In this document: piece after piece, positions 1,176 to 40,836 of the stretch
Layout: each line of letters starts with the position of its first letter
Numbering within the stretch: the stretch's first letter is position 1
DNA from: a virus
Length of the DNA: 59,160 nucleotides
Reading direction: 5' to 3' (one strand)
Virus record (IMG/VR): IMGVR_UViG_3300042516_004109
Coordinates: 1-59,160 of that record
Position numbers and translations under genes: made by a program
The notes under the pieces: generated by a model
The model's input: the letters and a program-made list of their open reading frames with translations, nothing else
Database searches by the model: none
Told to the model about the DNA's origin: nothing

Positions 1176-1204
1176 GGGGGACTAGAAATAGTCCCCCTTT
1201 TTTT
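1176..1204 (+). terminator. Rho-independent terminator of gp32
   Basis: A perfect 9-bp stem (GGGGGACTA at 1176-1184 with TAGTCCCCC at 1189-1197) closes a GAAA tetraloop and is followed by seven T residues at 1198-1204. It ends the plus-strand gp32 transcript. The opposite strand has no U-tract, so it should not terminate the convergent minus-strand gene, whose stop codon (1203-1205) touches the T-run. Confidence 0.95.
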
Positions 1205-3878
1205 ATGCAATAATCGCTGAAGTAAATGATGTTGGGTGAGCAAAATCTCTTGATATTGCTCGATTAAATGCATTTTCATCTGATCTAGTTGATGCTTTTT
1301 GCATTGGCTGGTTTGGTGGTGGAGTTGCTTGTTTACCGCCGCCACTCGAATTATTGACTACCATTGGTGCTGCTGTTGGTGGTGCCGCTTGTGCAGTCAT
1401 TTGTGATGATGCCAGTTGAGCAGAACCTTGAGCAACTTGATTTCCTGTTGTACTTACTACAGGAGTTAATTGCGCACTACTAGAAGGAGCTGCAGCGACC
1501 ATGGAAGGTGCTGCTGTTGAAGGTGCTGCAGCGACCATGGAAGGTGCTGCTGTTGAAGGTGTTGCAGCGACCGAAGGTGCTGCTGCAGGAGGTGCTGCTG
1601 AAGGTGCTGCAGCGAACATGGAAGGTGCTGCTGCAGGAGGTGCTGCTGTAGTTGAACCGCCACCACCACCACCACCTCCACCGCCTCCACTAGCTGGTGC
1701 ACCAGCAGAGGCAACGAGACCACTCTCTCCAGAATATGCATTCACTTTAGCAAGAATTTCTGCGCCATAACCTTTTGTTAAATCTAGATTACCACCAATT
1801 GCTTTTGTAACTGCATAATTTGCTGTCTTTTGATCTGCAAAATCTTGCTTACCCTTTAGAGCTGTCATCACATATGACGCAGAGATTTTGGCTGCAACTG
1901 TAGGGTCATTGGCTAAATCTGGATTTTTCACAAGATCTTCACCAACCTTTTTTCCATAAAATCTGTAATTATTTTTGCCAGTTAATTGAATGTATCCTCT
2001 ACCGCGATACTTAAATCCATCTCCAGGTTCAGTATTGCCCATTGATTGTCCAATTGACGTATCCTTACCATACATCAACTCACCCATCGATGTTGGACTA
2101 GATTTAATTTGTGTCAATTGTGCATCATCGTATCTTGCTGCACGCTTTCCAAAAATTTTGCGAATTCTATCAAGAGCTGTATTCTTGTAATTCATATTTT
2201 CAGAAATTGGTTTAAAATTAGATTCTTTTTTAATATTTGCGAGCAAGGCAATTTGAGCAAATTTATTATTCAGACCAGCCTCTTGCATTGCAATATTGAT
2301 AGGTGATCCAGTCATATTTTTTATATCACTACTCACTGACTTATCTGTTTCTGCAAGACTTTGAGTTATACCTGCTTCAGTTGAAGATACATCAATAGAC
2401 CCTCTGCTACCGCCGCTGCCACCGCCAGTTCCACCGCCGCCAGTTGCAGCAGTTACAGGACCTGATCTCGCAGCTGCAGTTGCTGTTGAAACAGTTGATG
2501 ATCCAGGCATTGCACCTCGATTGGCTGCACTTACAGGAGAAGCTGGCGGTTTAGGGGCTGGTGCTGCAACTGCAGCTGCAGACTTAACGCTTAATTTCAA
2601 TGCATTATATTTTTCAGGATTGGCGTTAATTCTGGCAATAGCATCGCGAGCTGTTGCACTTCTCTTATCTCCTGGACCATAAGCATCAATAAGATCTTTA
2701 TATTCTTGTGGTAAATCATTGAGCCCATATTTCTTACCATCTACTATGTAACCAGTAGTTGCACCTTTAGGATCGTAAAGAACTTTGAGACCATAAATTC
2801 GCTCTAACTCTTTCATAGGTTTCTTTGCTTCATCTGCTGCTTTGCCTGAAGCCATGTAAGCAGCACCACCTACGACTAATCCTACGGTTCCAATAGCTGT
2901 AGCTGCCACTGTAGCACCAGGTGCTGCTGCTCTCGCATATCTTAATGCGCGGAGAGCGTTAGTTTTGAATTTACCTGGTTTTTTGTTTGTTTTTGGGTTT
3001 GGGCGATTTCTTCTTCTATCTGGTGTATCTATATCAAAGCCATCATCGCCAGAATTATTTTTTCGTATTAGATCATCAAGTTTTTGATGAATTGATTTAT
3101 TATTGTCTTGACCTAAACTTTTTAGAATCGATTCTACCGTATCCGCTAAACGAATCATTGGATCTTCATCTGCCGCAATTGCTGCGCTCAATGCATCTGT
3201 TCTAGAGATACCTGTGTTTCCTCGTTTTACTGCACCAGTTTCTTTAAACTGCGCAAAGGTTGCATCTGAACTTTTAGCAAATTTTCCTTTAGCGTCTCGA
3301 TATAAGGTTTTTCCAGTTGTTGGATCAATCTCTGATTTAAATCCTCTATTTACAAGAGTAAATTTTGCAAGGGCGCGTACATTTTTTTTAATCTCTACAA
3401 TATCACGCACTAAATTTTTAAAACCTGAGATATCATCTCTTTTTTTGACACTTTTTATTTTGTCTTTATCATTTTTTTTATCTAGATCGAACTTTGCTCG
3501 AGCTTCTTTAACTCGATCAGCAGATTCCATTTTTTCAAGACCGAGATTTTTAAACAAATCACCTAAATCTTTTCCAAGTAGACCCTCAAAAAATGCTTGT
3601 CGACGACCTGTCGTCCCTTTTATCGCAATGGCATATTCTTTTGCCATTTCAGACCTTGCTGATGCTGATGCAAAGGCACCTCCGATAAGCCCCTTTCCTT
3701 CTCTTGCAGCTGCGGCTGCAGCATCTGCCGCTTTTTCATATGCAGCTGAACGCTGTGAACCTTTAGAGGATTTTTTATTCTTTGCAACTTCTTTGATGAT
3801 ACTATCCAAAACACCTTTTGGTGCATTTGGTAATTCTCTCTTTAAAGTTTCTTGTAATTTTTTTGGATCTATTTCCAT
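1203..3878 (-). CDS. Large tail protein with GH19 lysozyme domain; probable tape measure/hub protein
   Basis: This is an 891-residue protein. Residues 1-310 are mostly helical and charged. A glycine/alanine-rich hydrophobic segment at roughly 317-343 (TAIGTVGLVVGGAAYMASG) looks membrane-spanning. Residues about 520-690 match GH19 chitinase/endolysin domains: a candidate catalytic Glu in ANIKKESNFKPISENMNY, and GNTEPGDGFKYRGRGYIQL. The C-terminal 170 residues are a poly-Gly run and Ala/Pro repeats, ending in a conserved-looking RSDENAFNRAISRDFAHP segment. It lies directly downstream (6 nt) of the gp26/gp51 pair. A long helical protein with a membrane segment and a muralytic domain at that position is typical of tape-measure proteins. 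I infer it digests peptidoglycan at entry. A baseplate hub or spike role is the alternative. The exact T4 counterpart (gp29?) is not established from sequence. Confidence 0.7.
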   Translation of the reverse strand: MEIDPKKLQETLKRELPNAPKGVLDSIIKEVAKNKKSSKGSQRSAAYEKAADAAAAAAREGKGLIGGAFASASARSEMAKEYAIAIKGTTGRRQAFFEGLLGKDLGDLFKNLGLEKMESADRVKEARAKFDLDKKNDKDKIKSVKKRDDISGFKNLVRDIVEIKKNVRALAKFTLVNRGFKSEIDPTTGKTLYRDAKGKFAKSSDATFAQFKETGAVKRGNTGISRTDALSAAIAADEDPMIRLADTVESILKSLGQDNNKSIHQKLDDLIRKNNSGDDGFDIDTPDRRRNRPNPKTNKKPGKFKTNALRALRYARAAAPGATVAATAIGTVGLVVGGAAYMASGKAADEAKKPMKELERIYGLKVLYDPKGATTGYIVDGKKYGLNDLPQEYKDLIDAYGPGDKRSATARDAIARINANPEKYNALKLSVKSAAAVAAPAPKPPASPVSAANRGAMPGSSTVSTATAAARSGPVTAATGGGGTGGGSGGSRGSIDVSSTEAGITQSLAETDKSVSSDIKNMTGSPINIAMQEAGLNNKFAQIALLANIKKESNFKPISENMNYKNTALDRIRKIFGKRAARYDDAQLTQIKSSPTSMGELMYGKDTSIGQSMGNTEPGDGFKYRGRGYIQLTGKNNYRFYGKKVGEDLVKNPDLANDPTVAAKISASYVMTALKGKQDFADQKTANYAVTKAIGGNLDLTKGYGAEILAKVNAYSGESGLVASAGAPASGGGGGGGGGGGSTTAAPPAAAPSMFAAAPSAAPPAAAPSVAATPSTAAPSMVAAAPSTAAPSMVAAAPSSSAQLTPVVSTTGNQVAQGSAQLASSQMTAQAAPPTAAPMVVNNSSGGGKQATPPPNQPMQKASTRSDENAFNRAISRDFAHPTSFTSAIIA
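1492..1575 (-). repeat. 36-bp tandem repeat coding an Ala/Pro linker
   Basis: Two near-identical 36-bp units (1492-1527 and 1528-1563) and part of a third encode repeats of the type AAPSMVAAAPST in the C-terminal linker of the GH19 tail protein. They sit beside a (GGT/GGC)n poly-glycine tract at about 1660-1690. This is a low-complexity flexible tether and probably varies in length between related phages. Confidence 0.8.
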
Positions 3879-3884
3879 TTATTT

Positions 3885-4082
3885 TTATCTTCTGCGTTGC
3901 ATTTCTAACATCTTCATCTTTTCATTTTGCTCTTTTACCATCTCTTGTAGCATAGTTATGTAAATTTGTTTTTCCCAAGGTATCAGATTATCTAACTCAC
4001 TTAAAGAATACTTATGATGTTGCATCAATGAAAAATTAGTTGTATAGTAATTTTTCAAGTTCTCATAACCAAGAATTAATCG
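3885..4082 (-). CDS. 51: gp51-like baseplate hub assembly factor, -1 frame extension of gp26
   Basis: An open frame of 65 codons follows gp26 in the -1 frame and ends at TAA 3887-3885. It has no ATG until codon 20 (position 4025), so an independent start would give only 46 residues; a TTG at 4058 is also possible. The peptide has the short HHKYSLSELDNLIPWEKQIY motif, then a charged helical tail (MLQEMVKEQNEKMKMLEMQRRR). This resembles small gp51-type hub proteins and the T-domains of tail-assembly chaperones. The gp26 frame carries a T TTT TTC slippery heptamer immediately before its stop. I therefore interpret this as the frameshifted C-terminus of a roughly 303-residue gp26-gp51 fusion. Identity with T4 gp51 is by position and pattern. 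Confidence 0.6.
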   Translation of the reverse strand, partial: RLILGYENLKNYYTTNFSLMQHHKYSLSELDNLIPWEKQIYITMLQEMVKEQNEKMKMLEMQRRR

Positions 4083-4795
4083 AAAAAACTTAGAATACCC
4101 TCCACATGCACATTATGCACGAATTGACATTTGCTGCATGTCAGTTCCTGTTCTAGAACTACACGAGGGCTGGTTAAGAAAAACTGCTTGATATTTTGCA
4201 CTTGATCAAGCGTTAAATTATCAAAGAATGCCATTAATTCTTCTTTTGTGACAGAGTTTTTTTTGTAAACTTGATCTTGATCATAGATATAATCAAGATA
4301 CTCTGCAATTATCTCATATCCACCATCATCAAATTTATCATCTAATGCTGCTTGTGGAATCGATATCGATGGATAATTAAACTTAACTCCCACATTTTCT
4401 GTTAATTTGATAATACTAGAATGATTTTCTATATCTTGATACTTGATATTTTTTAATAGAAGATCAAATTCTGTAGCATGACCACATTCTTTATCCTCTA
4501 CAACATTGTTACATGTATGGATCATCTGGGCTGTTTCGCCGACTGAGTTAATTCGCAGATGTAAAAAGAACATCTCAACATCAAATGTTGGAAGATTGTC
4601 GACATCTATTTCATCTATACAACAATTTGTAATGATTTGTTTGATAGTTGATGTGATTTCATTTAAATTGTCTGCTTCTTTTGCAATCAAAAGAAGTTTT
4701 TCTTCTTTAACAAGAAATGGTCGAAAACGAATATTCTTATCAAGCGATTTTAAATACACTTCATGTATAGGATGTTCAATTTTTGGCAAAGGCAT
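4076..4795 (-). CDS. 26: gp26-like baseplate hub assembly protein
   Basis: This 239-residue protein resembles the T4 baseplate hub family containing gp26 (208 residues in T4), which acts in assembly of the central baseplate hub. Visible features are the N-terminal PKIEHPIHEVYLKSLDKNIRFRPFLVKEEKLLL segment (split here as PKIEHPIHEVYLKSL and RFRPFLVKEEKLLL) and cysteines near HTCNN, KECGH and a CSKC pair close to the C-terminus, which could bind zinc. The gene lies between the gp19-fold gene and the gp51-like frame, in the T4 order 26-51. Its last codons hold a candidate -1 slippery site. If tail-assembly chaperones of other phages are the right model, gp26 and the frameshifted product would handle the tape-measure protein encoded next. 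Confidence 0.8.
   Translation of the reverse strand: MPLPKIEHPIHEVYLKSLDKNIRFRPFLVKEEKLLLIAKEADNLNEITSTIKQIITNCCIDEIDVDNLPTFDVEMFFLHLRINSVGETAQMIHTCNNVVEDKECGHATEFDLLLKNIKYQDIENHSSIIKLTENVGVKFNYPSISIPQAALDDKFDDGGYEIIAEYLDYIYDQDQVYKKNSVTKEELMAFFDNLTLDQVQNIKQFFLTSPRVVLEQELTCSKCQFVHNVHVEGILSFFD
4082..4103 (-). promoter_or_regulatory. Candidate -1 programmed ribosomal frameshift signal
   Basis: On the minus strand GGAGGG (4103-4098) lies 9 nt upstream of the heptamer T TTT TTC (4088-4082). The heptamer is in frame with gp26 codons agT TTT TTC, two codons before the gp26 TAA. A purine-rich internal Shine-Dalgarno-like element about 10 nt before a slippery heptamer is the arrangement that stimulates -1 shifting in E. 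coli dnaX. Slipping would lead straight into the open gp51-like frame. Only a weak 4-bp stem (TTCT/AGAA) is seen downstream. Confidence 0.6.
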
Positions 4796-28617: not shown

Positions 28618-30360
28618 ATGGCACGCAGACCAGATACATTAGAGAAATCGTGGATTATTGGTCCATCGCGTGGCACACAAACATTTAATGCGCCATCGAA
28701 TCTTTTCATTGATTATGGTCGTCATGTCGCAACAGTCTCTGGTCGTGGTGGCTCTGGAAATGCTCCAGATGCAGTATATACATCAAATTATACCACAAAC
28801 TACAATATTGCTTATCCAATTTCAAATCAACCGATAGCAAATCGCCCAGAAACCGCATGGACAACAAACTACAATGTTGTTTATCCAATTGCAAATCAGC
28901 CGCTTGCAAATCAACCAGCAACTGCATTTACCACGAACTATACCACAAATTATAACATTGCGTATCCAATCGCAAACCAACCAGCGACTGCATACACAAT
29001 CAATTATAACACCAATTATAATATCGTATATCCAGTTGCAAATACACCAGAAACTGGTCGACCTGAAGTTGCGTGGGTAACAAACTATAATACTAATTAT
29101 AACACTGTGTATCCGATTGCGAATCAACCAGAAGCATCAAGACCTGTGACTGCATACTCTACGAATTATAACACTGTGTATCCAGTCGCGAATCAACCAG
29201 AAGCATCAAGACCTGTGACTGCATACTCTACGAATTATAATATTGCGTATCCAATCGATGAACAACCTGTTTTTGAAGTATTAACTGGATATAATACAAA
29301 CTATAATGTGATTTATCCAGTTGCAAATCAACCTGGAACTGGAACTTATAATCCAGCAACTTCGTTTAATTGGAATGCGTATATTGAATATGAGGTTGAA
29401 AAAAGAATAAGTGCACCAGCTGAGCCATTAGAATATTCAGTATTCGTAAGTAATGTGGAAAATAATTCTGGTTCAAATAACACTTGTCCAGTACCAGTTT
29501 ACACGGTTAATGGATTAATAAACAATGCGGCAAATGGACAACAGCAATATTACGCGGAATATACTTGCACACCTGTAGGAAATAATGAAAATTACAATAC
29601 CAATTATAATGTCGCATACCCAGTTGCTAACCAACCTGCAACATACAATCTTGCTTACAATACCAATTATAATGTTGCATATCCCGTAGCAAACCAACCT
29701 GCAACTGCATATTCTATTCTTTATAATACCAATTATAATGTCGCATACCCAGTTGCCAACCAACCAGCAACTGCGTATTCTATTCTTTATAATACCAATT
29801 ATAATGTCGCGTATCCAGTAGCAAATACACCAATTGCAAACCAACCAGCGACTGTATACACAATTAATTATGCAACGAATTATAACATTGCATATCCAAT
29901 CGCAAATCAGCCAGAAGCAGCGAGACCTATAACTGCATACTCAACGAATTATAATGTCGCATATCCAGTTGCCAATCAACCGATCGCAAACCAACCTGCC
30001 ACTGCATACACAATCAATTATAACACCAACTACAATGTAATCTATCCAATCGCAAATCAACCAATAACTGCATGGACGACAAATTATAGTACCAATTATA
30101 ACATTGTCTATCCAATCGCGAATCAGCCATTGGCGAATCAGCCTATCACAAGTTATATTCCTGGAAATGTTGGATCTGCGACTAATGTTCTCGGTGTAAA
30201 TTTCCCAGGTGGACCAATCGATCTTTCTGGGTTTAGTGGTCCTTCTGGAATAGCTCCTTATATCGCTGAAACTGTAGTTCAATATTGGCAGTATCCAGAT
30301 AACTCGAATTATCCCGTAGCAGTTCCACCTGGCGGACAAATTGTTGTCAAAATCGAGTAA
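28618..30360 (+). CDS. Giant-repeat YP-ANQP protein 1
   Basis: This 580-residue protein has three parts. The N-terminal cap (residues 1-52) includes TFNAPSNLFIDYGRHVATVS and GRGGSGN. Then come 16 degenerate units of about 21-27 residues with core TNYN(I/V/T)(A/V/I)YP(I/V)ANQP, interrupted after unit 8 by a roughly 75-residue insert containing two cysteines. The C-terminal cap has NVLGVNFPGGP and NYPVAVPPGGQIVVKIE. The caps look like two halves of one beta-sandwich domain with the repeats expanded in a loop. The second copy follows at 30404. No known family is recognised for the repeat. Position between fibre genes suggests a virion surface or fibre protein; proline-rich repeats are possible substrates of the hydroxylase encoded at 32486. 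Confidence 0.75.
   Translation: MARRPDTLEKSWIIGPSRGTQTFNAPSNLFIDYGRHVATVSGRGGSGNAPDAVYTSNYTTNYNIAYPISNQPIANRPETAWTTNYNVVYPIANQPLANQPATAFTTNYTTNYNIAYPIANQPATAYTINYNTNYNIVYPVANTPETGRPEVAWVTNYNTNYNTVYPIANQPEASRPVTAYSTNYNTVYPVANQPEASRPVTAYSTNYNIAYPIDEQPVFEVLTGYNTNYNVIYPVANQPGTGTYNPATSFNWNAYIEYEVEKRISAPAEPLEYSVFVSNVENNSGSNNTCPVPVYTVNGLINNAANGQQQYYAEYTCTPVGNNENYNTNYNVAYPVANQPATYNLAYNTNYNVAYPVANQPATAYSILYNTNYNVAYPVANQPATAYSILYNTNYNVAYPVANTPIANQPATVYTINYATNYNIAYPIANQPEAARPITAYSTNYNVAYPVANQPIANQPATAYTINYNTNYNVIYPIANQPITAWTTNYSTNYNIVYPIANQPLANQPITSYIPGNVGSATNVLGVNFPGGPIDLSGFSGPSGIAPYIAETVVQYWQYPDNSNYPVAVPPGGQIVVKIE
28789..30150 (+). repeat. Degenerate 66-81 bp coding repeats, array 1
   Basis: Sixteen in-frame units encode TNYN..YP.ANQP. 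Several consecutive units (for example around 29650-29830) are nearly identical at DNA level, sharing the run TATTCTATTCTTTATAATAC. The array is broken by non-repeat sequence at about 29350-29590. Identical units also occur in array 2, giving substrate for recombination. Confidence 0.9.
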
Positions 30361-30403: not shown

Positions 30404-32422
30404 ATGACAAAGGCTACAAACTTAAGAAAAAGCTGGATCGGTGGAGCTTCGAGAGTAACAACGACTTTTAATGCTCCAGGAAGTTTAACACTTCCATATG
30501 GGCAGTTTAAGGGGACTGTCTCTGGTCGTGCTGGAACAGGTAACGACCCAGTTGCAGCGACATATAGCATCACTTATGCTACCAATTATAATATTGCCTA
30601 TCCGATCGCAAATCAGCCGATCGCAAACCAACCAGCGACTGCATATACAATCAATTATAACACCAATTATAATGTCGCATATCCAATCGCTAACCAGCCG
30701 ATCGCAAACCAACCAGCGACTGCGTTTACTACAAATTATAACACCAATTATAACATTGCGTACCCAATCGCAAATCAACCAGAAGCATCAAGACCCGTAA
30801 CTGCATACTCTACGAATTATAACGTTGCTTATCCGATAGCAAATAGACCAGAAGCTGCAAGACCAGCGACGGCATACTCTACGAATTATAACACGAACTA
30901 TAATGTTGCGTATCCAGTTGCTAACCAACCAGCAACTGCGTATTCTATTCTTTATAATACCAATTATAATGTTGCGTATCCAGTTGCTAACCAACCAGCA
31001 ACTGCGTATTCTATTCTTTATAATACCAATTATAATGTTGCGTATCCAGTTGCCAATCAACCAGAAGCATCAAGACCTGTAACTGCGTATTCTATTCTTT
31101 ATAATACCAATTATAATGTTGCTTATCCGATCGCGGCTCAACCAGAATCATCTAGACCTATAACTGCTTATACTACAAATTATAACACTGCGTATCCAGT
31201 GGCTAATCAGCCAGAAGCATCAAGACCAGCAACTGCATATACTACAAATTATAGTACCAATTATAATGCTCCACTTGATCCAAGCTGGAGCGCATCCATG
31301 GACTTTAGCAATGTTGGATATTTGCAAATTGGATTTGAAGAAGGCATGTATAATAATTCAAATGGATATGAATTATTCCCATATACTGGCACTGGCACAT
31401 CTTTTGATACTGGAACTCAAATTATCAGCACACTTACCACATATGTTATTACTGGCACGCATGACAATTTGGGTCCTGGCACACTAACTATTAATTATAC
31501 TAATTTTCCAGGAAGTCCAGGAAACATTGATAATCAGCCAGTTGCAAACCAACCAGCGACTGCGTATTCTATTCTTTATAATACCAATTATAATGTTGCA
31601 TATCCAGTCGGGAATCAGCCAGCAACTGCGTATTCTATTCTTTACAATACAAACTATAACGTTGCGTATCCAGTAGCCAATCAACCAGAGGCATCTCGTC
31701 CAGCAACTGCATATTCTATCACATATTCAACCAATTATAATGTCGCATATCCAGTCGCGAATCAACCAGAAGCATCAAGACCTGTGACTGCATATAGTAC
31801 AAATTACAACGTTGCTTATCCAGTTGCAAATCAACCAGAAGCATCAAGACCTGTAACTGCATATACTACAAATTATAATACTGTGTATCCAGTTGCAAAT
31901 CAACCGATTGCAAATCAACCAGCGACTGCATACACAATCAATTATAACACCAATTATAACATCGCGTATCCAATTGCAAATCAGCCAGCAACTGCGTATT
32001 CTATTCTTTATAATACCAATTATAATGTCGCGTATCCAGTTGCAAATCGACCAATTGCAAATCAACCAGCGACTGCATACACAATCAATTATAATACCAA
32101 TTATAATACTGTGTATCCAATTGCAAATCGACCAATTGCAAACCAACCAGCGACTGCGTTTACTACAAATTATAATACCAATTATAACACTGTCTACCCA
32201 ATCGCAAATCAGCCAGAAACTGGTCGACCAATAACATCATATACTCCAGGTAATCCTGGCGCATCTACAACTGTTCTTGGTGTATTTTTCCCAGGAGGAG
32301 CAGTTTCTACTCTTGCTCCGACTGTAAGTCCAACTTTGGTCGACTATGAACGATTCCCTGATAATGCAAACTATCCCGTGGCAGTGCCTCCAGGTGGTCA
32401 GATCGTAATTAAGATTGAATAA
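30404..32422 (+). CDS. Giant-repeat YP-ANQP protein 2
   Basis: This 672-residue paralog of the preceding gene shares the N-terminal cap (RKSWIGGASRVTTTFNAPGS, then GRAGTGND) and C-terminal cap (TTVLGVFFPGG, then NYPVAVPPGGQIVIKIE). It holds about 18 complete TNYN..YP.ANQP units plus one degenerate unit. The repeats are split by a different insert of about 95 residues (around 31270-31545; YLQIGFEEGMYNNSNGYELF) with no sequence relation to the insert of protein 1. So caps and repeats are shared while the inserted domains differ, which fits two surface proteins displaying alternative binding modules. Function is unknown. The 2OG oxygenase gene follows 63 nt downstream under its own promoter. Confidence 0.75.
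   Translation: MTKATNLRKSWIGGASRVTTTFNAPGSLTLPYGQFKGTVSGRAGTGNDPVAATYSITYATNYNIAYPIANQPIANQPATAYTINYNTNYNVAYPIANQPIANQPATAFTTNYNTNYNIAYPIANQPEASRPVTAYSTNYNVAYPIANRPEAARPATAYSTNYNTNYNVAYPVANQPATAYSILYNTNYNVAYPVANQPATAYSILYNTNYNVAYPVANQPEASRPVTAYSILYNTNYNVAYPIAAQPESSRPITAYTTNYNTAYPVANQPEASRPATAYTTNYSTNYNAPLDPSWSASMDFSNVGYLQIGFEEGMYNNSNGYELFPYTGTGTSFDTGTQIISTLTTYVITGTHDNLGPGTLTINYTNFPGSPGNIDNQPVANQPATAYSILYNTNYNVAYPVGNQPATAYSILYNTNYNVAYPVANQPEASRPATAYSITYSTNYNVAYPVANQPEASRPVTAYSTNYNVAYPVANQPEASRPVTAYTTNYNTVYPVANQPIANQPATAYTINYNTNYNIAYPIANQPATAYSILYNTNYNVAYPVANRPIANQPATAYTINYNTNYNTVYPIANRPIANQPATAFTTNYNTNYNTVYPIANQPETGRPITSYTPGNPGASTTVLGVFFPGGAVSTLAPTVSPTLVDYERFPDNANYPVAVPPGGQIVIKIE
30578..32230 (+). 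repeat. Degenerate 66-81 bp coding repeats, array 2
   Basis: About 18 complete in-frame units and one degenerate unit encode TNYN..YP.ANQP with variable spacers (ATAYSILY, EASRPVTAYS, IANQPATAYTINY). Many units match those of array 1 almost base for base. The insert interrupts at about 31270-31545. Confidence 0.9.
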
Positions 32423-36088: not shown

Positions 36089-36424
36089 ATGGCGCAATTT
36101 GTAGAAGTAGATCTAGATCAAGGAACAACCTTTAATCTTGATATTGTAGTTAAGAACGATGATGGCAGCAGAATTAATGTTGCAGGCTACACATTTTCTT
36201 CCTCAATGCGCAAATCATTTTATTCTTCAAGTGTGACAGCAAATTTAACCGTTGCAGTGATTAATGCTGCGAATGGTGATGTTAGATTTTCGCTAAATGC
36301 AGCGTCAACTGCTAACATAAAAGCAGGTCGTTATGTGTTTGATATCAAACAAATTAATACTTCAAATGTAACATCGCGTATGTTTGAGGGGATTATTACA
36401 GTTAATCCACAGGTAACGAAATGA
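36089..36424 (+). CDS. Small Ig-like/BppU-type fibre-associated protein
   Basis: This 111-residue beta-sandwich-like protein has [35 protein letters not shown], then [20 protein letters not shown] and VFDIKQIN. The pattern matches small domains at the N-terminal side of phage receptor-binding assemblies (BppU-like). A good AGGA site precedes it and it overlaps the collagen-like fibre gene as ATGA, so the two products are probably made together. It may attach the collagen fibre to the tail. Family assignment is by pattern. Confidence 0.7.
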
Positions 36425-39400
36425 CGACAATTTCAGTTTCATCCACTGCTGGTCCACAAGGTCCACAAGGTCCACAAGGTTCTACTGGTCCTCAAGGACC
36501 ACAAGGTCCACAAGGATCAGTTGGTCCACAAGGTCCACAAGGTCCATCTGGTTCTACTGGTCCACAAGGTCCATCTGGTGCACAAGGTGCTGCGTCAACT
36601 GTTGCTGGTCCTCAAGGACCACAAGGACCACAAGGTGTCGCTGGTCCACAAGGACCACAAGGACCACAGGGTGTAACTGGTGCACAAGGTCCATCTGGTC
36701 CACAAGGTGTCGCTGGTCCATCTGGTCCACAAGGTGATACAGGTCCTCAAGGTCCTCAAGGTGTCACTGGTGCACAAGGACCACAGGGTGCAACTGGTCC
36801 ACAGGGTCCTCAAGGTGTCACTGGTGCACAAGGACCACAAGGTCCGCAAGGCGTCACTGGTGCACAAGGTCCATCTGGTGCTCAAGGTAATCAAGGTAAT
36901 CAAGGTGCACAAGGCATTCAAGGTTTAACAGGTGATACTGGTCCACAAGGTCCTCAAGGTCCTCAAGGTGTTGCGGGACCACAAGGTCCACAAGGTGTCG
37001 CTGGTCCACAGGGTGTCGCTGGTGCACAAGGTCCATCTGGTGCTCAAGGTAATCAAGGTGCACAAGGCATTCAAGGTTTAACAGGTGATACTGGTCCACA
37101 AGGTCCACAAGGTGTCGCTGGTCCATCTGGTCCATCTGGTCCACAGGGTGTTGCTGGTCCACAAGGTCCATCTGGTGCTCAAGGTAATCAAGGTGCACAA
37201 GGCATTCAAGGTTTAACAGGTGATACTGGTGGACAAGGTCCATCTGGTCCATCTGGTCCATCTGGTCCACAAGGTGTCGCTGGTCCACAAGGTGTCGCTG
37301 GTGCACAAGGTCCACAAGGTGATACAGGTCCATCTGGTCCATCTGGTCCACAAGGTGTCGCTGGTCCACAAGGTGTCGCTGGTCCACAAGGTCCACAGGG
37401 TGATACAGGTCCACAAGGTCCTTCTGGCGTGTCAAATGTTCCTGGTCCGCAAGGTCCACAGGGTGATACAGGTCCTCAAGGTCCTCAAGGTCCACAAGGC
37501 GTCACTGGTCCACAAGGTCCATCTGGTGCTAAAGGTGATCAGGGTGAATTTGGTGGCGCAACTTTTGAGTACATCTACTTAACAAATACTGCAAACACAG
37601 ATCCTGGTGTAGCAAATTTAAAATTCGATAATATAACATTTTCTTCTGTATCACGATTGTATATCGACTTTACAGATTTAAGTACTGCAAACGTATTTAA
37701 TTATTTGCAAACTATTGATGACTCTACGTCAACAATCAAAGGAACATTTAAAGTTGCAAATACTGCAAATGTAAGTGAATTTGCATACTTTAATATTAAT
37801 GGATCTCACGAACACGTTTCAAGTTATTTCTCTGTTCCTGTTGCACATTTAAGTGGTGTTACAAGTTTTTCAAATTCTACCAATGTCATCATCACATTTG
37901 TTCGTACTGGTGATAAAGGTGATACAGGTCCACAAGGTCCGCAAGGTCCGCAAGGTCCACAGGGTGCTGGTCCTCAAGGTCCACAGGGTCCTCAAGGTCC
38001 ACAGGGTCCTCAAGGTCCACAGGGTCCACAGGGTCCCCAAGGACCACAAGGTGTCACTGGTGCAAGAAATTACACTGTAACGAATAGTGGTGCCAGTCAT
38101 TATGTGATTGATGGCGCAAATGATCCTACATTGTATTTGATGCGCGGATTCACATATGAATTCTTTGTAAGTGCATCTGGACATCCTTTCTGGATCCAAA
38201 CAGTTCCTGCGCCATACAGTGTTGGAAATGTTTACAGTAGTGGTGTAACAAATAATGGTGACGATGTTGGCACTGTAATATTTGCGGTTCCATATAATGC
38301 ACCAAATACTCTTTATTATGTTTGCCAAAACCATTCTTCAATGTCTGGTACAATTATTATCAGTGATGTGGGTCCAGTTGGTCCTCAAGGTCCACAAGGT
38401 GTAACTGGTGATACAGGCAATCCTGGACCACAAGGTCCAACTGGTCCAGGTGGTAATACTGGTGCACAAGGTCCACAGGGTGTTGTTGGTCCACAGGGTC
38501 CACAGGGTCCACAAGGTCCAACTGGCGCAGATTCAACAGTTGCTGGTCCTCAGGGTCCATCTGGTCCATCTGGTGCTCAAGGTAATCAAGGTGCACAAGG
38601 CATTCAAGGTTTAACAGGTGATACTGGTCCACAAGGACCACAAGGTCCACAAGGTCCACAAGGTCCTCAAGGTGATGCATCGAGTGTTGCTGGTCCACAA
38701 GGACCACAGGGTCCATCTGGTGCTCAAGGTAATCAAGGCGCACAAGGTTCACAAGGCATTCAGGGTTTAACAGGTGATACTGGTCCACAGGGTCCACAGG
38801 GTCCACAAGGTGATGCATCAAGTGTTGCTGGACCACAGGGTCCACAGGGTCCGCAAGGTTCTACTGGTGACACAGGACCAACAGGTCCACAAGGACCACA
38901 AGGTCCACAGGGTGCTGGTCCACAAGGTCCGCAAGGTCCTCAAGGTGATGCATCAACTGTTGCTGGTCCACAAGGACCACAAGGTCCACAAGGACCACAA
39001 GGTGCTGCGTCAAGTGTTGCTGGTCCACAGGGTCCACAGGGAGCAATTGGTCCGCAAGGTCCGCAGGGCGTCACTGGTGCAAGAACATATACAGTGACGA
39101 ATGTCGGAGCTGGTGCTTATTCAATCGATGGTTCTAGCAATCCAACATTAAATTTACTGCGTGGATTTACTTATGAATTTAGTATAAGTGCTTCTGGACA
39201 CCCTTTCTGGATTCAAACAGTTTCTGGTGCATATAGTTCTGGAAATATATATTCATCAGGCATTACAAATAACGGCACTCAAGTTGGAACGCTAACATTC
39301 GCTGTTCCTTATGATGCACCAAGTACTCTTTATTATGTTTGCCAATTCCACGCATCGATGCAGGGTGTGATTAATATTAGTGATGTTGGTCCTATTGGTC

Positions 39401-40836
39401 CACAAGGTCCACAGGGACCACAAGGACCACAAGGTTCAATTGGATCAACTGGTGATGTTGGTCCTCAAGGTCCGCAAGGTCCGCAAGGTCCACAGGGTCC
39501 GCAAGGTGCTGGTCCTCAAGGTCCACAAGGACCACAAGGTGATGCGTCAAGTGTTGCTGGTCCGCAAGGTCCACAAGGTCCTCAAGGTGTCACTGGTGCA
39601 CAGGGTCCACAAGGTCCTCAAGGTGTCACTGGTGCACAGGGTCCACAGGGTCCTCAAGGTGTGACTGGTCCACAAGGTCCACAGGGTCCTCAAGGTGTGA
39701 CTGGTCCTCAAGGTCCTCAAGGTGATACAGGTCCACAGGGTCCTCAGGGTCCACAAGGACCACAAGGTGTTAAGGGTGATACTGGTGAATTTGGTGGAGC
39801 AACATTTGATTATGTGTTTAGTGCTAATACAGCAAACACCGATCCAACAGCTGGTTTCGTCAAGTTTAATAATGCAACACTTCTATCTGCAACTGAGATG
39901 TATATTGATAACATCGATCGTTTAAGCGCAAATGTGTTTAATTACCTGAACACAATCGATGACTCAACATCAACAATCAAAGGCACGTTCAAGATTGCAA
40001 ATTCTGCAAACGTTTTAGAATATGCATTTTTCAATATTAACGGTACTCATCTTCATGTTACTGATTGGTTCGTTGTTCCTGTTGCTGGATTGAATACAAC
40101 ACTTGTCGGATCAAACTTCTCAAATAGCACTAATGTCATCATCACATTTGTTCGTACTGGTGATAAAGGTGACGCAGGTCCACAAGGTCCTCAAGGTGTG
40201 ATTGGTCCTCAAGGTCCTCAAGGTCCACAAGGTGTCACTGGTCCACAAGGACCACAAGGTCCGCAAGGTGTCACTGGTCCACAGGGTCCACAGGGTCCAC
40301 AAGGTGTCATTGGTGATACAGGACCACAAGGTCCTCAAGGTGTGATTGGTCCTCAAGGTCCTCAAGGTCCTCAAGGTCCACAAGGTGTCACTGGTCCTCA
40401 AGGTCCACAAGGTCCACAAGGTCCTCAAGGACCACAAGGTCCTCAAGGTCCTCAAGGCAACACAGGTCCAACTGGACCAAATGAAGGTGCAACGCTTAAA
40501 GCTGTAAAAGACTTTATGGTTTCGAATACAAACACTAATGGCGCAAATACTGTCAGTCTTACAACTGCTAACTATTTCCGTCATACATTAACAGCAAATG
40601 TGACATTTACATTCACGGATGCACCAACTTCTGGAACAGGTCAAATGTTCTCGCTATTATTGTCGCAAGATGGAACTGGTGGAAGATTGCCATCATTCTC
40701 CAATACAATTTATTGGGCTGGTGGATCTATTCCTCCTGCGACAACAGATGCAAATGCTCGTGACTTGTGGACATTTATCACATATGATGGTGGTACGACA
40801 TATTGGGGCACTTTGACTATGAAGGACCTTCGATAA
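36421..40836 (+). CDS. Collagen-like tail fibre with two cupredoxin-like domains
   Basis: This 1471-residue fibre is built from Gly-X-Y blocks dominated by GPQ, separated by globular domains. Approximate order: collagen 11-377; domain A 378-497 ([42 protein letters not shown]); collagen 498-547; cupredoxin-like 548-650; collagen 651-887; cupredoxin-like 888-990; collagen 991-1123; second domain A 1124-1250; collagen 1251-1353; C-terminal domain 1354-1471, homologous to the fibre at 27056. Both cupredoxin-like domains keep a candidate type-1 copper set: His in GHPFWIQT and C-x2-H-x2-M (CQNHSSM, CQFHASM). Triple-helical trimerisation is expected. The C-terminal domain is the likely tip. Confidence 0.9.
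36451..40480 (+). repeat. Collagen-like GPQ coding repeats in five blocks
   Basis: Gly-X-Y triplets encoded mostly as GGTCCACAA or GGTCCTCAA fill about 36451-37553, 37915-38058, 38371-39080, 39391-39787 and 40171-40480. Proline is almost always in the X position and Gln, Ser, Val or Thr in Y. One higher-order unit ([19 protein letters not shown]) recurs at least five times. Confidence 0.93.

Follow-up and report, generated by a model that had tools for sequence, protein, structure and literature searches.

A candidate -1 frameshift joining gp26 to a gp51-type extension in a clade of T4-like phages, with the layout of lambda tail assembly chaperone genes

Introduction

In phage lambda, the short chaperone gpG is extended to gpGT by a -1 slip on G_GGA_AAG just before the stop codon, and the C-terminal extension is followed by a large gene, that of the tape measure gpH. 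The dnaX gene of E. coli slips on A_AAA_AAG between a Shine-Dalgarno-like element approximately 10 nt upstream and a strong 3' hairpin, and its frameshift yields the shorter product. For T4-like phages, Vladimirov and co-workers are said to have named T4 genes 26 and 51 in their 2022 study and to have found frameshifting conserved in several groups.

According to the later papers that cite it (PMC10885494; PMC12846349), the study by Vladimirov, Gautam and Davidson (Virology 2022) identified these chaperone genes in T4-like phages. As relayed there, the system comprises a gp26-type short product and a gp26-gp51-type long product; TAC-N genes of some T4-like groups carry poly-T slippery sequences (PMC12846349), while others dispense with frameshifting and carry two chaperone genes, one short and one long and fused (PMC10885494). 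In the Vandenendeviridae and Andersonviridae, which are other phage families, the slippery string is GTTTTT, and their -1 site, like that of the locus described below, is T-rich and closes the TAC-N gene, ahead of the tape measure gene (in the window, of a candidate one), with a -1 frame that is always open (PMC12846349).

The present locus lies in a T4-like phage sequence of 59,160 bases from a virus record; this whole stretch is referred to as the window. The locus has the same two types of predicted products as the T4-like chaperones of 2022 and the same general layout as lambda gpG/gpGT, although no sequence or solved-structure similarity to the lambda proteins was found here and the chaperone role in the window is putative. 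The idea of frameshifting and, reportedly, the link to T4 genes 26 and 51 date from that study of 2022, and the window adds a further clade, in which gp26 is only 30-38% identical to that of cyanophages.

Anatomy of the gp26-gp51 junction

The features of the junction, all on the minus strand, are listed in Table 1. The 3' end of gp26 reads AGT TTT TTC GAT TAA, which places the heptamer in the phase X_XXY_YYZ and bears out the original prediction that T_TTT_TTC stands in the correct phase near the gp26 stop. The predicted GGAGGG was found nine nt upstream of the heptamer, and the string GGAGGG-TATTCTAAG-TTTTTTC-GAT-TAA occurred only once in the whole window. The -1 frame begins at CGA and contains exactly 65 open codons up to the TAA at 3885; as had been claimed, its first 19 codons include no ATG, the first being codon 20, and a TTG at 4058 has no ribosome-binding site. 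The window has 48 open frames with 150 codons or more. Three of them carry an in-phase heptamer no more than 19 nt from the stop and 13 can be extended in the -1 frame by 50 codons or more, but the two coincided in gp26 only.

Table 1. Positions of the junction features and the following gene in the window
Feature	Positions	Strand	Evidence
gp26, short putative chaperone form (TAC-N), 239 aa	4076..4795	-	PF12322 T4_baseplate E 8e-56; PHROG 150 E 3e-61; translation
GGAGGG, Shine-Dalgarno-like putative stimulator, 9 nt 5' of heptamer	4098..4103	-	position; codon choice in 79 relatives
9-nt spacer between GGAGGG and heptamer	4089..4097	-	TATTCTAAG
Slippery heptamer T_TTT_TTC, gp26 frame	4082..4088	-	in phase, as TTTTTTC or TTTTTTT in 79/83 non-redundant relatives
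GAT codon between heptamer and gp26 stop	4079..4081	-	
gp26 stop TAA, one codon past heptamer	4076..4078	-	
gp51-type C-terminal extension (TAC-C), -1 frame, 65 codons + TAA	3885..4082	-	PHROG 634 E 8.5e-25
Following gene (891 aa), positional candidate for the tape measure; GH19-type lytic domain	1203..3878	-	PF00182 E 1.3e-9; PHROG 181 endolysin E 3.7e-37

The family matched by the -1 peptide, PHROG 634, is annotated as "baseplate hub assembly catalyst" (gp51), and the predicted gp51-type motif is thus encoded in this frame. The peptide also matched the C-terminal end (the last ~50 positions) of the long PHROG 150 gp26 profile (E 2.4e-5), and therefore that profile covers both the gp26 and the gp51 parts.

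Conservation of the slippery site

A scan of viral contigs yielded 54 relatives with identities of 38-100%, and every readable junction among these carried TTTTTTC or TTTTTTT in phase together with an open -1 frame. With further scans and named phages, 165 loci were assembled, of which 83 remained once near-duplicates were removed. Searches of viral contigs with HTVC008M gp26, KVP40 gp26, and T4 gp51 added few new lineages. The slippery site itself was not selected for in this sampling because the peptide patterns used to fetch loci map elsewhere in gp26. In 79 of the 83 non-redundant relatives, TTTTTT[C/T] stood in phase 7-13 nt 5' of the gp26 stop, and the -1 frame of all 79 was open and gp51-like; the conservation of heptamer and phase on which the original prediction depended was thereby observed. 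These relatives include the phages S-ShM2 and S-PM2, the Pelagibacter phage HTVC008M, KVP40, and the Sinorhizobium phage phiM12. Two phages beyond the 83 loci also fit: TTTTTTC is present in Aeromonas phage P19, and a near match, T_TTT_TTG, in Rhizobium phage RHph_I1_9. Conservation of the heptamer, its phase, and the -1 frame extends over Kyanoviridae-like phages, the Pelagibacter phage, KVP40, P19, and phiM12.

Homopolymer runs are generally prone to error in some sequencing technologies, and a sequencing or assembly error in the T run could in principle have split a single fused gene. The probability of such an error is negligible, since six or seven Ts and the same frame relation recur in the isolates S-PM2, S-ShM2, KVP40, HTVC008M, P19, and phiM12 and in many metagenomes; the independently sequenced isolates refute it.

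The four relatives without a canonical heptamer belong to the Ackermannviridae or are Vibrio phage K351, and their -1 frame is still open past the gp26 stop. Across the Ackermannviridae and K351 loci this open frame is gp51-like, and ATT TTC ATT TAA, CTT TTC AAG TAA, GCT TTC ATG TAA, and CTT TTT CAA TAA are candidate non-canonical slip sites that resemble the type of T7 gene 10.

Codon choice and candidate stimulators

Codon usage at the site departs strongly from the background of the same genes. All 79 heptamer-bearing loci use TTT for the first Phe (background 69%), and 75 of them use TTC for the second (background 31%). The residue before the Phe pair varies (Ser, Asn, Asp, Ala, or Gly), but its codon ends in T in all 79. 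At the place of GGAGGG, the upstream Glu is encoded by GAG in 56 of 74 loci (background 29%). Of the 18 loci that use GAA instead, 17 continue with GGA or GGG for Gly, even though GGT is the most frequent Gly codon of these genes. The Shine-Dalgarno-like string is thus preserved whichever Glu codon is used. These trends persisted when the loci were thinned to 24 and to 11, and the binomial P-values on codon choice, which ignore residual kinship, are indicative only. Given the strength of this departure, selection at the slip site acts on the RNA, the Shine-Dalgarno-like string included.

Outside the window clade, local stem-loops were more frequent directly downstream of the heptamer than at control positions (mean z -1.70, as against -0.73 to 0.14 at the latter). 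In contrast, no downstream stem-loop was seen in the window clade, where the mean z of -0.31 for pseudoknot-free local folding was the same as at control positions. The excess concerns Kyanoviridae-like phages, among them S-PM2, whose stem-loop 3' of the heptamer has a z of -4.3. The window clade therefore resembles dnaX in the position of its Shine-Dalgarno-like element, as had been proposed, but not in having a 3' hairpin, and this element, to which the codon choice points as a putative stimulator, is the sole visible candidate in the window.

Start of the gp51-type frame

Most database annotations draw gp51 as a gene of its own, and many cyanophage loci have an ATG ~5-8 codons past the slip site. 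On this basis, gp51 could be a separate protein that starts at the TTG at 4058 or at a later ATG and is coupled to the termination of gp26, with the heptamer being incidental. However, in 77 of the 79 loci the first 12 codons after the slip site held no start codon with a Shine-Dalgarno sequence, the first ATG of the -1 frame was scattered from codon 3 to codon 45, and conserved residues stand before the first ATG in the window. Conservation of the heptamer and of its codons also goes beyond what the protein needs, and T4-type gp51 is itself fused to a gp26-like domain. A separate gp51 is accordingly very unlikely. An independent gp51 start was rejected on the 79-locus scan, which revealed neither a conserved start position nor a conserved Shine-Dalgarno sequence. 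Because of the missing Shine-Dalgarno start, the wandering ATG, and the conserved residues before it, the separate gp51 annotation in databases is probably a gene-caller artefact.

Both processes might also operate, such that frameshifting makes the fusion while weak internal initiation releases some free gp51. The TTG and ATG codons of the -1 frame would allow this, but the lack of a ribosome-binding site and of a conserved start position makes it extremely improbable. The frameshift reading, in which the -1 frame is translated as an extension of gp26, is retained below.

Relationship to T4 gp26 and gp51

T4 encodes gp26 (208 aa) and gp51 (249 aa) in two separate genes that have diverged. Both of their products match PF12322 and each other (BLASTP, E 2e-6), and gp51 consists of a gp26-like domain with a PHROG 634 tail at its C-terminal end. 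A profile built from in-silico fused products ran through the junction unbroken on T4-type gp51. No slippery heptamer was found at the end of T4-type gp26 genes. Judged by their sequences, T4 gp26 and gp51 are paralogues of the predicted short and long products of the window. Because the T4 genes are homologous, gp51 is fused, and the heptamer is missing in T4, the short and the fused long form have a gene each in T4, as opposed to the one gene and putative frameshift of the window. The suggestion that T4 26/51 form an equivalent system thus holds for the homology and for gp51 as a natural fusion, but not for the means of making the long form in T4 itself, where the two genes stand apart, have diverged, and lack the slippery site. 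The depositors of Klebsiella phage KP1079 label both gp26 and gp51 as "tape measure chaperone".

The predicted structure of the window gp26 (pLDDT 85) matched structures predicted for gp26 and gp51 from other phages, and the model of T4-type gp51 (pLDDT 83) carries extra predicted C-terminal helices. Neither model matched a solved structure in the PDB, chaperones included, at E<=0.001, and the gp26 profile gave only chance-level matches to PDB sequences.

The downstream gene and other genes of the window

The gene after the gp51-type frame had been called a probable tape measure. Its position agrees with this, but the matches of the 891-aa product are confined to GH19/endolysin families; a tape measure identity is plausible from position. 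In the corresponding neighbourhood of HTVC008M, a gene matching several tape-measure families lies one short gene further on. The gene after gp51 is modular: its N-terminal (~1-270) and C-terminal (~750-890) parts are conserved in relatives, whereas many close relatives lack the middle, which in the window holds the GH19-type lytic domain, or have a different one, and the total length varies.

Elsewhere in the window, a 1471-aa protein (36421-40836, plus strand) consists largely of collagen-like GPQGPQ repeats (PF01391, E 2e-115) and is probably tail fibre material. A 2OG-Fe(II) oxygenase (PF13640; 32486-33088, plus strand) and a glycosyltransferase (PF00534; 40874-41869, plus strand) are encoded among the fibre genes, and it is possible that these enzymes modify collagen-like or repeat fibres. 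Two further proteins (28618-30360 and 30404-32422, both plus strand) are composed mostly of NYNTNYNxAYPxANQP repeats, and the first of these had no match in Pfam.

Proposed mechanism and implications

The anatomy of the junction, its conservation, the codon constraint at the RNA level, and the homology to T4 gp26 and gp51 make it very probable that this is a tail-assembly-chaperone -1 frameshift like that of lambda gpG/gpGT, the layout originally predicted. We infer the slippage and its efficiency, the stimulatory role of GGAGGG, the chaperone function, and the identity of the tape measure as parts of the following scheme. The majority of ribosomes would terminate at TAA and release the short gp26 (TAC-N). 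A fraction would pause, probably through binding of the 16S rRNA anti-Shine-Dalgarno to GGAGGG, and slip back one base on T_TTT_TTC to make gp26-gp51 (TAC-NC), with the predicted sequence ...ILSFF-RLILGYE...QRRR. The short and long forms would then bind the tape measure protein, which the next gene probably encodes, and bring it to the assembling tail tube, as do gpG and gpGT in lambda.

What the window contributes is a further clade, a quantified signal at the RNA level, and a role for the Shine-Dalgarno-like element that can be tested. Many genes of marine T4-like phages annotated as "gp51 baseplate hub assembly catalyst" probably owe this label to misannotation: each would be the C-terminal half of a frameshift product, with its start codon wrongly assigned. 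The chaperone reading would also account for the paralogy of T4 gp26 and gp51, long contradictory as hub proteins. Across T4-like families, the chaperone frameshift may have been rewired several times, which is about as likely as not: the window clade has only a heptamer with a Shine-Dalgarno-like element, many Kyanoviridae-like phages add a 3' stem-loop, the Ackermannviridae and K351 have a non-canonical site (ATT TTC, CTT TTC, GCT TTC, or CTT TTT), and T4 has two paralogous genes instead. If true, this rewiring would form a natural series in which the evolution and the loss of a recoding signal can be followed.
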